NCBI RefSeq assembly: GCF_900091455.1
Contig: NZ_LT607412.1
Span: 992,001 to 1,056,000, forward strand
Source of the DNA: Micromonospora coriariae
Lineage (GTDB): Bacteria; Actinomycetota; Actinomycetes; Mycobacteriales; Micromonosporaceae
Reading direction: 5' to 3'
Length of the DNA: 64,000 nt
Below are positions 36,396 to 40,809 of this stretch, in pieces. Every line of letters begins with the position of its first letter. The first letter of the stretch is position 1. The notes beneath the pieces were generated by a model. That model worked only from the letters and a program-made list of their open reading frames with translations. It did not search any database and was not told the DNA's origin. Both the position numbers and the translations under genes were made by a program.

Positions 36396-37136
36396 TCAGA
36401 CCTGACTCCAGAGCGCCGGCACGTTCGGCGGCTCCCACCCGGCGATCGCGGTGTGCGCCTGCCGGCAGCGGTACGTCGACCCGCCGTAGGTGACCTGGTC
36501 ACCGACCTGGTACGCCCGGCCGGCCGCCCAGGTGCCGCCCGGCGCGGGCGGAGTGGTCGGCGTGGCCGTCGGCGTGGGCCGTGGCGTGGGTGTGGGGGTC
36601 GGGCTGGGCACCGGCCCACCACCACCGCCGCCGATCTGCACGTCGATGCAGGAGTAGAAGGCGTTCGCGGTGTCGGCGATGTTCCACACCGCGAGGATCT
36701 TCTGCCGCCCGGAGAAGCCACCGAGGTTGACATTGTGCGAGACGGTGGCGCCGGGCTGCTGGCCGTTGCCGTTGACCGAGGCGACCCGGGTGTTGCCGAT
36801 CCAGTACTCCCAGTTGCTGGTCGCGTGCCGGGCGGTGTTCACCCAGGTGAAGGTCAGCGAACTGCCGACCGAGGTGGCGGGCCAGCCCCGGCTGTCGTCG
36901 TTCAGGACGGCGAACTGGGCGATTCCGGCGTTGCAGCTGCGCAGGCCCTTGGGACCCTCGACGCTCTGCGGCTCGTACTTGATCTGCCCGCAGTCGGGCA
37001 CCCGGCCCTGGGCGCAGAGCGCCTGGCGGCTCGGCGGGGCGGACACGTAGCCGTGCGCCTGGGCGGGCGCGGCGACGGTGAGGGTGGCGGCGACGGCACC
37101 CGCCGCCACCAGCGGGACGGTGATTCTTCGACGCAT
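36396..37136 (-). CDS. AA10 lytic polysaccharide monooxygenase with CBM5/12 chitin-binding module
   Basis: The 246-aa secreted protein has a signal peptide 1-27 (ending A-Q-A) that exposes His28 as the mature N-terminus, as required for the copper histidine brace (H-G-Y-V-S). The AA10 domain runs to about residue 168, with the second brace His likely in TARHATSNWEYWI. A Pro/Thr linker follows (168-200), then a CBM5/12 domain (WAAGRAYQVGDQVTYGGSTYRCRQAHTA...W). The architecture suggests chitin oxidation. AAGGAG precedes the ATG by 8 nt. Confidence 0.92.
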   Translation of the reverse strand: MRRRITVPLVAAGAVAATLTVAAPAQAHGYVSAPPSRQALCAQGRVPDCGQIKYEPQSVEGPKGLRSCNAGIAQFAVLNDDSRGWPATSVGSSLTFTWVNTARHATSNWEYWIGNTRVASVNGNGQQPGATVSHNVNLGGFSGRQKILAVWNIADTANAFYSCIDVQIGGGGGGPVPSPTPTPTPRPTPTATPTTPPAPGGTWAAGRAYQVGDQVTYGGSTYRCRQAHTAIAGWEPPNVPALWSQV

Positions 37137-37520: not shown

Positions 37521-37675
37521 TGCGATCCCTCCCGGTGTTGCGGCGGTTCATCCGGTCTAACGGACGACACGCCGGAGCCGACACGCCGCTGAGGTCGTCC
37601 GGCTAGCGGCATTCCGCCCGGTACCGACATACGCAGAGGCATTCTGAATGCACATGTCCTGATACGGGGGTTTTC

Positions 37676-37936
37676 ATGGCTACCTGCGAGGTTTGCGGCA
37701 ACGACTACTGGATGGCGTTCGAGGTGCGTACGGTCAGCGGCGACGTGCACACCTTCGACTCGTTCGAGTGCGCGATCCACCGACTGGCACCGATCTGTGA
37801 GCACTGCGAGATCAAGATCGTCGGGCACGGCGTGGAGGTCAACGGCCGGTTCTTCTGCTGCGGACACTGCGCCCGGGCGGTCGAGGGCGCCGAGGGCGCC
37901 GAGATCCGCGACGCCGTCGGGGCACGCCCCGCCTGA
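37676..37936 (+). CDS. Small Cys/His-rich metal-binding protein, 86 aa
   Basis: The 86-aa protein has C-E-V-C (residues 4-7), DSFECAIHRLAPICEHCEIKIVGHG, and FFCCGHCARA: three Cys pairs plus His residues, enough for one or two zinc sites. It resembles actinomycete proteins annotated as prokaryotic metallothionein-like, but the fold looks more like a zinc ribbon (C-x2-C...C-x2-C with an intervening His). It is probably cytosolic. The function is unproven. Confidence 0.75.
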   Translation: MATCEVCGNDYWMAFEVRTVSGDVHTFDSFECAIHRLAPICEHCEIKIVGHGVEVNGRFFCCGHCARAVEGAEGAEIRDAVGARPA

Positions 37937-37950
37937 TCCCGCCCCTGCGG

Positions 37951-38111
37951 TACGGTCGTGCGATGCGGCCGTACCTGGGCGTCCTGCCCCCACCGCGCTC
38001 CTGACCGGAGCGCCGCGCCTCTCGCCGAGCGGTCACTGACCCACTCGGCCACCTCGCCGTACGCGCTCCGTCGACGTCGTCCCCGTCAACGGCTCACCCT
38101 TTTCGGAGCGC
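37951..38111 (+). promoter_or_regulatory. Candidate leader-peptide translational attenuator for the EamA transporter
   Basis: TACGGT (37951-37956) lies 6 nt before ATG 37963, predicting a leaderless 13-codon leader. Four mutually complementary segments follow: 1, GCGCTCC (37995-38001); 2, CGGAGCGC (38006-38013); 3, GCGCTCCG (38063-38070); 4, CGGAGCGC (38104-38111). Segment 4 contains the GGAG that serves GTG 38116. Pairings 1:2 with 3:4 hide it; pairing 2:3 frees it. The leader stop TGA (38002-38004) is in the 1:2 loop. Ribosomes stalled on the three leader Pro codons would mask 1 and favour 2:3. Confidence 0.55.
37963..38004 (+). CDS. 13-aa leader peptide
   Basis: The frame is MRPYLGVLPPPRS. 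The three consecutive proline codons just before the stop are a classic ribosome-slowing stretch (relieved by EF-P). The stop is embedded in the loop of the first hairpin. The ORF is called on the basis of the -10 element directly upstream and the RNA structure around its end; its short length alone would not justify it. Confidence 0.5.
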   Translation: MRPYLGVLPPPRS

Positions 38112-38115
38112 ACCC

Positions 38116-39060
38116 GTGTCCACCTCCCGTACCGCGCCGCCGGCCGCCCCGGCCCCGGACGTCACCCGGGCCCGCACCGGCCTGATCCAGATCACCGTCA
38201 CCGGAGTGCTGTGGGGCACCACCGGCGTGGCGGTGCAACTGTTGCGCGAGAGCACCGGGCTCAGCCCGGTGAGCATCGGTTGCCACCGCCTGGCCATCGC
38301 CGCGCTCGTCCTGCTGGCGTGCACCGCCGGCCGGCTCGGCGCGATCCTGGCCGCCCTGCGCGCGGCGCCGGTGTCGCTGCTGCTCACCGGCGTGGGCCTC
38401 GGCCTCTACCAGGCGCTCTACTTCGCCGCCGTGGCGCTGGCCGGAGTGGGCGTGGCCACAGTGGTCAGCCTCGGCCTGGCCCCGGTGCTCGCCGCGGCGT
38501 GGGAATCGGTACGGGCCCGCCGGATGCCCGACCTGGTGCGGCTCGGAACACTTGTCGCCGCCGTGGCCGGCCTCGCCCTGATCACCGGTGCCACCGCGCA
38601 GCCCACCACGGCGGCGCCTGCCCCGCTGCTCGGTCTGCTCGCGGCGGCCGGATCCGGCCTCGGCTACGCCGTGACCACCCTGATCAGCCGACAGGTGTCG
38701 CAGCGCACCGCGCCGATGACGCTGACCACCATCTCCACAGTGATCGGTGCCCTGACCCTGGCCCCCCTGGCGCTGGTCGCCGGGGTCGGCGTACCGGTAC
38801 GCGCCGACACCGTGGCGCTGCTGCTGCACCTGGGCGTGGTCACCACCGCGGTGGCGTACGCGCTGTTCTACGCCGGGCTGCGCACCACCGCGGGCAGCGT
38901 CGCCGCCGTACTGACCCTGCTCGAACCACTGACCGCGGCGGCACTGGCCGTGGCGCTGCTGCACGAGCCGCTCCCGCTGCCGGTGATCGTCGGCGGCGCG
39001 CTGCTGCTCACCGCAGTGGCCGCCACCTACCTCGCCCCCACCCGGGCGGACGTACCGTGA
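38116..39060 (+). CDS. EamA/DMT-family transporter, ten membrane helices
   Basis: The 314-aa protein has two repeats of five helices with the EamA pattern (GVLWGTTGVAVQLL at the start of repeat 1; AAAGSGLGYAVTTLISRQVSQR at the start of repeat 2; AYALFYAGLRTTAGSVAAVLTLLEPLTAAALAVALL near the end, a hallmark L-x-P-x-x-A). EamA members export amino acids or metabolites. The expected Shine-Dalgarno GGAG (38105-38108) lies 7 nt before the GTG start and is also arm 4 of the attenuator, so expression is likely controlled at translation. Confidence 0.9.
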   Translation: MSTSRTAPPAAPAPDVTRARTGLIQITVTGVLWGTTGVAVQLLRESTGLSPVSIGCHRLAIAALVLLACTAGRLGAILAALRAAPVSLLLTGVGLGLYQALYFAAVALAGVGVATVVSLGLAPVLAAAWESVRARRMPDLVRLGTLVAAVAGLALITGATAQPTTAAPAPLLGLLAAAGSGLGYAVTTLISRQVSQRTAPMTLTTISTVIGALTLAPLALVAGVGVPVRADTVALLLHLGVVTTAVAYALFYAGLRTTAGSVAAVLTLLEPLTAAALAVALLHEPLPLPVIVGGALLLTAVAATYLAPTRADVP

Positions 39061-39693: not shown

Positions 39694-40809
39694 ATGTCCA
39701 CTCTCGTCCGATCACCACGCGTGCTCTGGCTGCTCGCCATCGCGGCGGCCGCCACGCTCATGGTCACCACCGCGCTGACCACCGCGCTGGTCCAGCCCGC
39801 CTCGGCACACGGGTCGGTCGTCGACCCGGCCTCGCGCAACTACAGCTGCTGGCAACGCTGGGGCAGCGACTTCCAGAACCCTCGGATGGCCACCGAGGAC
39901 CCGATGTGCTGGCAGGCCTGGCAGGCAGACCCGAACGCCATGTGGAACTGGAACGGCCTGTTCCGCGAGGGCGTGGCCGGCAACCACCAGGGCGCCATTC
40001 CCAACGGTCAACTGTGCAGCGGCGGGCGTACCCAGAGCGGTCGCTACAACGCCCTGGACACCGTCGGTGCCTGGAAGACCACAGCGGTGTCGAGCAACTT
40101 CCGGGTCCGCTTCTTCGACCAGGCCAGCCACGGCGCCGACTACATCCGGGTGTACGTGACCCGGCAGGGCTTCAACCCGCTGACCGAGCCTCTCGGCTGG
40201 GACGACCTGGTGCTGTCCGGCCAGATCGGCAACACCCCGGCGTCGCAGTGGAAGCAGGAGACCGGCGGCGTCTCCATCGAAATCCCGGTCAACGCGTCGG
40301 GCCGCACCGGCCGACACATCGTCTACACCATCTGGCAGGCCAGCCACCTGGACCAGTCCTACTACCTGTGCAGCGACGTCGACTTCTCCGGTGGAACGGG
40401 CACCCCGCCGCCCACCACTCCGCCGCCGACGACGCCACCGCCCACCACGCCACCGCCGACCACGCCACCGCCGACCACTCCGCCGCCGACGACGCCGCCG
40501 CCGGCCGGCGCCTGCACGGCCACGTACGCGGTCACCGGCCAGTGGGCCGGCGGCTTCCAGGCCGAGGTGCGGGTGACAGCCGGCGGCTCGCCCACCCGGG
40601 GCTGGTCGGTCAGCTGGAACTACACCGGCGGCCAGCAGGTCACCTCGGCGTGGAACGCGACCGTCACCAGCAACGGCACGCTGGTCACCGCGCGCAACGT
40701 CGCCCACAACGGCACCCTCGCCGCCGGGGCGAGCACCACGTTCGGTTTCCTCGGCTCGTGGAACGGCACCAACCCGCTTCCGCTGGCCTCCTGCACCACG
40801 ACCAGTTGA
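39694..40809 (+). CDS. AA10 lytic polysaccharide monooxygenase with CBM2 (cellulose-type) module
   Basis: The 371-aa secreted protein has a signal peptide 1-38 (ending S-A-S-A) that exposes His39 (H-G-S-V-V-D-P-A-S-R). The AA10 domain of about 195 residues is of the larger cellulose-active class (CWQRWGSDFQNP, WNWNGLFREG, then a second His). A Pro/Thr linker (about 236-270) leads to a CBM2 domain (C-T-A-T-Y-A-V-T-G-Q-W-x-G-G-F-Q-A-E-V-R-V...W-N-G-T-N-P-L-P-L-A-S-C). CBM2 binds cellulose or chitin. With the CBM5/12 LPMO 2.5 kb away the organism can attack two crystalline polymers. Confidence 0.93.
   Translation: MSTLVRSPRVLWLLAIAAAATLMVTTALTTALVQPASAHGSVVDPASRNYSCWQRWGSDFQNPRMATEDPMCWQAWQADPNAMWNWNGLFREGVAGNHQGAIPNGQLCSGGRTQSGRYNALDTVGAWKTTAVSSNFRVRFFDQASHGADYIRVYVTRQGFNPLTEPLGWDDLVLSGQIGNTPASQWKQETGGVSIEIPVNASGRTGRHIVYTIWQASHLDQSYYLCSDVDFSGGTGTPPPTTPPPTTPPPTTPPPTTPPPTTPPPTTPPPAGACTATYAVTGQWAGGFQAEVRVTAGGSPTRGWSVSWNYTGGQQVTSAWNATVTSNGTLVTARNVAHNGTLAAGASTTFGFLGSWNGTNPLPLASCTTTS
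40404..40503 (+). repeat. 15-bp-period Pro/Thr linker repeat in the LPMO gene
   Basis: The linker between AA10 and CBM2 is about six near-perfect copies of a 15-bp unit encoding P-P-T-T-P. The copies differ at the third codon position, so it is an ordinary expanded low-complexity linker. Confidence 0.85.

Follow-up and report, generated by a model that had tools for sequence, protein, structure and literature searches.

A putative Pro-Pro leader peptide for translational attenuation of an EamA-family transporter in Micromonospora and other Actinomycetes

Introduction

Translational attenuation of the erm type, known from ermC and its relatives, uses a short leader, four RNA segments and a Shine-Dalgarno (SD) sequence placed in the last stem, and a ribosome stalled in the leader masks segment 1, so that segments 2 and 3 pair. 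The locus described here, on the 6.93-Mb chromosome of Micromonospora coriariae (G000), resembles this type in its short leader, its four segments and its SD in the last stem, and in our folding model the 2:3 pairing likewise frees the SD. It departs from the erm type in several features: the leader seemingly has no SD of its own (leaderless mRNA), an extra middle hairpin is present, the motif in the leader is Pro-Pro whereas that of the erm type is a macrolide arrest motif, and the target is an EamA transporter instead of a methyltransferase.

As in the mgtL and mgtP leaders of Salmonella, Pro codons of a leader peptide would sense slow translation at this locus, but those leaders regulate Mg2+-related genes at the level of transcription, whereas here translation would be controlled through sequestration of the SD. 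The toiL leader of topAI in Escherichia coli is short and senses ribosome-targeting antibiotics, and the present leader can be likened to it, although peptide and target differ and Rho is involved in the toiL system. In cadC, which is tuned by EF-P and polyproline, Pro-Pro bonds are rate-limiting, as they would be here; the motif of cadC lies inside the regulated protein, whereas at the present locus it belongs to a leader that is coupled to an RNA switch. In this study, we present the case that the EamA transporter is subject to translational attenuation by ribosome pausing at Pro-Pro and that this control is widespread in Actinomycetes, a reading that we consider highly probable.

Results

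The locus lies in the window, by which we mean the whole 64,000-nucleotide stretch of DNA that was analysed, and consists of the following features.

37951-37956, + strand: -10-like hexamer TACGGT, presumed leaderless promoter, 6 nt before the ATG at 37963
37963-38004, + strand: leader ORF of 13 codons, MRPYLGVLPPPRS, with stop codon TGA (38002-38004)
37995-38001, + strand: segment 1, GCGCTCC, overlapping codons 11-13; partner, segment 2
38006-38013, + strand: segment 2, CGGAGCGC; partner, segment 1 (off) or segment 3 (on)
38024-38049, + strand: middle hairpin between segments 2 and 3, from RNAalifold
38063-38070, + strand: segment 3, GCGCTCCG; partner, segment 2 (on) or segment 4 (off)
38071-38103, + strand: conserved loop between segments 3 and 4, CGGCTCACC, from alignments
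38104-38111, + strand: segment 4, CGGAGCGC, containing the Shine-Dalgarno GGAG
38116-39060, + strand: EamA-family transporter gene, 314 aa, GTG start at 38116, from Pfam PF00892

The leader ORF, the -10-like hexamer, the four complementary segments and the hidden GGAG had been predicted in the initial annotation, and each was found at the coordinates predicted. When the region was shuffled 5000 times with its dinucleotides preserved, no shuffle contained a quadruple of 7-mers complementary in the order 1:2, 2:3 and 3:4. Across the whole window, such a quadruple occurred in 30 of 6382 overlapping 168-nt frames (step 20, both strands); the 12 of these 30 that were listed fall at five places, one of which is the locus, and the other four consist of words such as GCCGCCG, GGCCTGG, CCGGCCG and GGCGCCG. 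ORFs of 7-24 aa starting 4-8 nt past a TANNNT hexamer are only two on both strands of the window, the leader included. The start of the EamA gene at 38116 is backed by the alternation of GTG and ATG at the same place in relatives.

Mutually exclusive hairpins are found in terminators too, and trp/his-type attenuators place a terminator with a U-run before the gene. Inspection of the sequence at this locus, in contrast, found no U-run 3' of segment 4, and segment 4 bears the SD itself, whose GGAG (38105-38108) lies 7 bases upstream of the start codon. That 3:4 attenuates transcription by acting as an intrinsic terminator is thus extremely improbable, and intrinsic termination as such is ruled out by the absent U-run. 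Rho-dependent termination at the attenuator is possible.

The encoded protein matches Pfam PF00892 (EamA) with an E value of 2.8e-27 and 96.1 bits, compared with a gathering score of 28.2. The nearest NCBIfam family, TIGR00950 (carboxylate/amino acid/amine transporter), scored below its cut-off. A PDB sequence search with the protein gave no match at E 0.01, and a plasmid search gave nothing at E 1e-30. EamA proteins are often exporters. Of the earlier description as a drug/metabolite transporter, membership of the EamA family stands by Pfam, and "drug pump" is a guess at the level of the family only. A single match to the EF-P family was found in the genome, and its loop reads KPGKGGAF.

In the surroundings of the locus, an 86-aa cysteine-rich ORF (37676-37936) adjoins it upstream and has no Pfam or NCBIfam match. 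The flanking ORFs 36396-37136 (- strand) and 39694-40809 (+ strand) have signal-peptide-like starts followed by HGYVSAPPSRQ and HGSVVDPASRN, respectively, and by motif they resemble AA10 polysaccharide monooxygenases.

Conservation was followed by a DNA similarity search of 151 genomes of the genus Micromonospora (g1), which gave 39 orthologous loci (L003-L041). Aligning the region in relatives had been proposed with the initial annotation, and the leader, its Pro codons and all four segments proved to be conserved, the leader being present in 38 of the 39 loci of the genus and cleanly lost in L036. In Micromonospora cabrerizensis (L036, L187), where the leader is deleted, an identical TACGGT stands 9 nt before the GTG of the EamA gene. 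Five further loci with weak DNA matches (L042-L046) have no leader. When 354 genomes of the family were scanned for the leader pattern, 65 places matched, spread over 63 genomes, and the reversed-pattern control gave 0. Thirty of the 65 places were taken as loci, with EamA downstream in 29 and not in L050; the additions are mostly from g4, which in the classification used comprises Actinoplanes, Couchioplanes, Winogradskya, Pseudosporangium and Jidongwangia. Among the other 35 places, five (in G059, G065 and G102, G045:1586595 and G111:5322963) seem to be chance, judged by the matched letters.

Fifty-nine distinct loci showing the leader/hairpin pattern, some of them found by the leader-pattern scan and all restricted to leaders ending in PPRS, were compared in detail. 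All 59 also carry the -10 hexamer, followed by an EamA gene with an SD, and TANNNT stands 5-7 nt before the ATG or GTG of the leader in every one (7 nt in 33, 6 nt in 25 and 5 nt in one). The leader has 13 codons in 58 of the 59 loci and 12 codons in L010, and the usual ending in g1 and g4 is G-(V/I)-L-P-P-P-R-S. The R-S ending is changeable, as seen in L207 (PPPRR) and L217 (PPPRV), which were found by protein.

Codons were tallied in 40 distinct leader DNAs of g1 and g4, chosen for a PPRS ending, so that residues 10-13 were fixed by construction and Leu8 was not. Leu8 was present in 40 of 40 (CTG 31, CTT 4, CTA 3, CTC 2) and Pro9 in 39 of 40 (CCC 24, CCG 11, CCT 4; one Ser), and the codons of Pro10 in these PPRS-selected leaders were CCG in 29, CCA in 7, CCC in 3 and CCT in one. 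Codons 11-13, which make up segment 1, were almost invariant at the nucleotide level, with CGC and TCC in 40/40 leaders. From the synonymous changes at the former positions and the fixed nucleotides at the latter, we infer selection on the peptide at residues 8-10 and on the RNA at codons 11-13.

This pattern bears on an explanation in which the hairpins would simply damp translation or affect the stability of the RNA, and the short ORF would arise incidentally from the stem sequence. It would agree with the coincidence of codons 11-13 and the stop codon with the nearly invariant segment 1, and with a folding switch that is weak outside Micromonospora (see below), but not with synonymous change at codons 8-10, a 13-codon length in all but one of the distinct loci, preserved promoter spacing, or an alternative 2:3 pairing that is preserved with new sequences; we judge it improbable. 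A plain hairpin without any leader function is rejected by the synonymous codon changes.

Two variants of the layout were also seen. In L049, L054, L201 and L202, the last two from Winogradskya, the 1:2 hairpin CCGCGCTCCTGACGGAGCG lies in a tandem repeat and the leader is longer. In L037-L040, L076 and L172, a second Micromonospora type, the gap between the leader stop and EamA is about 180 nt versus about 110 nt.

With the alignment as its sole input, RNAalifold returned 1:2, the middle hairpin and 3:4. In this off state 96.5% of the alignment cells are paired, compared with 22-48% when the partners are slid, and in the on state (2:3 and the middle hairpin) 95.3% are paired, compared with 21-49%. 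Changes on both sides occurred at 6 pairs, of which 5 belong to the 8 pairs of the middle hairpin. The core pairs of 2:3 and 3:4 are nearly invariant within the family and covariation there is modest; the covariation score is even higher when the register is slid by +2 (0.126 for 2:3 and 0.100 for 3:4, compared with 0.110 and 0.091). The compensatory changes for which the initial annotation had proposed a search were thus found in the middle hairpin and at some segment positions. For example, L048 and L051 carry concerted changes of C to A, G to U and C to A in segments 2, 3 and 4, with loss of the outermost 1:2 pair. In L055, L059, L207 and L217, U replaces C in segment 3, and both 2:3 and 3:4 are preserved through GU pairs. 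Segments 1 and 2 of L207 and L217, moreover, form a new pairing, CGCCCCGC/GCGGGGCG, whose register is shifted; the species that show this 1:2 pairing together with GU-preserved 2:3 and 3:4 are A. siamensis and A. cyaneus.

The arrangement itself was examined by a mechanical test for three overlapping helices, each of at least 5 bp, around the leader and the SD, with L047 left out. The four-segment architecture was found in 61/61 loci of the family (f1), 13/14 of f21, 13/14 of f28, 1/1 of f18 and 1/1 of f20, and in 5-19% of shuffled sequences; it was absent from L126 and L153. The stems of f21 (segment 1 CCCCGC, segment 2 GCGGGG, segment 3 UCCCGCUCC, segment 4 AGGAGC) have other sequences in the same layout. 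Sequestration of the EamA SD by the 3:4 stem is supported by both folding and conservation. An Rfam search gave 0 matches in positions 37600-38400 up to E 1, and none for five loci at the gathering score. Within the loop 38071-38103, ACG[G/A]CTCAC is kept in most Micromonospora and Actinoplanes types, which pairing does not explain.

The initial annotation had predicted a switch that is on at a proline stall and off when the leader carries no ribosome or one that has reached the stop codon, and this behaviour was reproduced by folding the RNA of this locus. In this model, the ribosome edge was set 15 nt past the first base of the P site and the RNA behind it was folded. The SD was open (P about 0.2) when Leu8, Pro9 or Pro10 occupied the P site and in no other state: it was closed without a ribosome, at earlier P sites, at Pro11 or later and at the stop codon. 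Among 92 loci, mean SD opening was 0.174, 0.172 and 0.147 at residue -1, the first Pro and the second Pro, respectively, and 0.018-0.054 elsewhere; this set is without L096 and L138, in which no SD start was found, and L041 entered with an internal ATG and L047 with the wrong ORF. With L047 left out, the SD was more open in the on state than in the off state in 85 of 91 loci, clearly in Micromonospora and weakly elsewhere. An on-state opening of at least 0.10 and three times the off state was seen in 36/41 loci of g1, 6/19 of g4, 8/14 of f28, 1/14 of f21 and 0/3 others, and the alternative 2:3 switch was weak or absent in 13/19 of g4, 13/14 of f21, 6/14 of f28 and 3/3 others. The SD of 12 of the 19 g4 loci stayed closed (<0.03) in what should be the on state, and that of L055, L058, L061, L066, L125, L126 and L135 was more open without a ribosome than with a stall.

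Shuffled sequences were compared with 26 hand-picked representatives from the set of 92 loci, for which log10 on/off was 0.96, compared with -0.30 to 0.02 in 15 shuffled sets. On-state openness was equal (0.165 in real and 0.173 in shuffled sequences), and a tighter off state made the difference. No useful on/off step was obtained for L048, L077, L092, L125, L126 and L135 in this comparison. The switch geometry is thus well supported by the conservation of pairing, and by thermodynamics mainly in Micromonospora.

Leaders beyond Micromonospora and the Actinoplanes-type genera were sought through the protein, irrespective of any leader. In 80 of the 127 other genomes of the family (E 1e-35), 4 had an EamA match, and all four carry a mini-ORF behind TANNNT (MPRPRLALVLPPPVA, MSRCLLPPPVVA, MARTIISPPVR and VTRFVLSPPAIR). 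A census of the class (E 1e-30) found an EamA match in 36 of 296 genomes, 24 with a PP leader, one (L102) with a frameshifted leader and 11 without a findable one. A leader was scored as missing when about 420-480 nt contained no ORF that ends in PP and has a [TC]A-NNN-T hexamer, so that non-PP leaders escape. Examples are MHRTHPITPPPAL in f21, VNSRVLPLGILPPPVV in f28, MIHQTRLFVTPPPRS in f18 and MHARRHICPPPRF in f20. In g84 (f21), the leader is present in 12/12 genomes and frameshifted in one of them (L117). Both L102 and L117 lack one C in the Pro codons of the leader (MHRLFPITPPPLPSGARPSAPAAL), and the resulting frameshift may be a natural loss or a sequencing error.

The named relatives of g86 are Nocardioides; an EamA match was obtained in 41 of its 88 genomes, 15 with a leader and 26 without, and the leader hexamers are frequently CANNNT. 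Leader and SD occur together in 14 cases, a leader without SD in one, an SD without leader in one and neither in 24 (Fisher 9e-9, uncorrected for kinship). A loose -10-like hexamer stands 5-8 nt before the EamA start in 16 of 25 leaderless and 4 of 15 leader-bearing cases. Since the PP leader is absent from 11 of the 36 class homologues and from 26 of these 41 genomes, the control is dispensable. A scan for the Nocardioides-type leader with hairpin gave 5 sites in the 296 class genomes, of which two are known EamA leaders (G488, G508) and the other three are presumed to be chance because the reversed pattern gave 4; no target gene besides EamA emerged from it.

Named carriers include Actinoplanes, Couchioplanes, Pseudosporangium, Winogradskya, Jidongwangia, Nocardioides, Marmoricola, Promicromonospora, Agreia and a Quadrisphaera MAG; among the 63 loci scanned of 79 named, several of which duplicate other loci of the set, 35 have the leader. 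The leaders of L078-L080, L091, L109, L155, L158 and L165 were recognised by reading, outside the motif finder. MKPAPP ORFs in L142, L145 and L151 were discarded as artefacts of an overlapping gene, and L151 has a separate real leader. In a quick tree of 125 proteins, 16 changes of the leader label were needed, at least 8 of them on starred branches, which suggests that the cassette was gained or lost repeatedly.

In 827 kb of sequence, chosen around EamA genes and partly by the leader pattern and including same-place copies, 95 distinct ORFs of 8-19 aa start 5-7 nt past TANNNT, and 89 of these end in Pro-Pro followed by 1-4 residues. What the leaders of the clades have in common is Pro-Pro and not Pro-Pro-Pro, as the endings SPPRS, GPPRS, SPPVR and SPPAIR exist. 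The proline run put forward in the initial annotation is therefore retained as Pro-Pro, and the triple proline is given up as a shared motif.

As the sole feature common to leaders of different clades, Pro-Pro would suit the same RNA switch with starvation for proline or aminoacyl-tRNA as its signal and with EamA moving an amino acid or a metabolite. The nearest NCBIfam family also points this way, though below its cut-off. However, the run close to the stop numbers no more than two to four Pro codons, with two in some leaders, and the preceding Leu, constant in the 40 tallied leaders, would be needless for starvation alone; we regard this signal as rather unlikely. The residues ahead of the prolines direct attention to a drug-dependent arrest peptide of the erm or cat kind, again with the same RNA switch, in which Leu-Pro-Pro would be read together with a bound antibiotic. 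G-V/I-L-P-P is conserved by position in the family, most f21 leaders have V/I-T-P-P-P, and export is common among EamA proteins, but the residue preceding Pro-Pro varies among clades (L, T, S, P, C, G, V) and, counting further against this explanation, we know of no resistance function of the EamA gene of this locus. A drug-dependent arrest is a tentative possibility, towards which we do not lean.

Discussion

The preferred reading, translational attenuation through a Pro-Pro pause, is the best explanation of the parts of the locus, their fit and their repeated rebuilding. Its anatomy, conservation, alternative pairing and positional fit can be read from the sequence, and on this basis we infer a leaderless start, a stall, induction and a transport function, which would work together as follows. 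With an mRNA start at or near the leader ATG, the leader would be translated from a leaderless mRNA. On a leader that carries no ribosome, or whose ribosome has reached the stop codon, 3:4 would pair and the EamA SD would be hidden. Should the ribosome pause while Leu8, Pro9 or Pro10 occupies the P site and the Pro-Pro bonds are being made, segment 1 would be covered and segment 2 left free; segments 2 and 3 would then pair around the middle hairpin, segment 4 would be released and the transporter would be translated. Because a pause on the prolines opens the SD in the folding model, the inducing signal is probably slow peptide-bond formation at Pro-Pro, which may arise from an inhibitor of the ribosome or from a shortage of EF-P or Pro-tRNA. 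The weakness of the folding switch outside Micromonospora slightly lowers our confidence in this mechanism, which we still hold to be highly probable, and slightly raises the small share of belief given to the plain damper.

In conclusion, we propose that Pro-Pro arrest leaders may form a hitherto undescribed family spanning the class, in which a leaderless mini-ORF, with nothing in common but Pro-Pro close to its stop, would serve as a general meter of peptide-bond formation (EF-P, Pro-tRNA, peptidyl-transferase inhibitors) and switch EamA exporters on by translational attenuation, with stems rebuilt several times in the same geometry. For this broad proposal as a whole, we see the chances as evenly balanced. 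If it is true, more than a dozen actinobacterial genera, including Micromonospora and Actinoplanes, would have a sensor of slow Pro-Pro synthesis wired to a transporter, and the response of the cell to faltering polyproline synthesis would be directly testable in a simple reporter. It would also open a way to identify what this orphan transporter carries, by finding the inducer first and then asking whether the pump exports that compound. In addition, these leaders would be a clean case of an RNA switch whose geometry was kept while its sequence was replaced.
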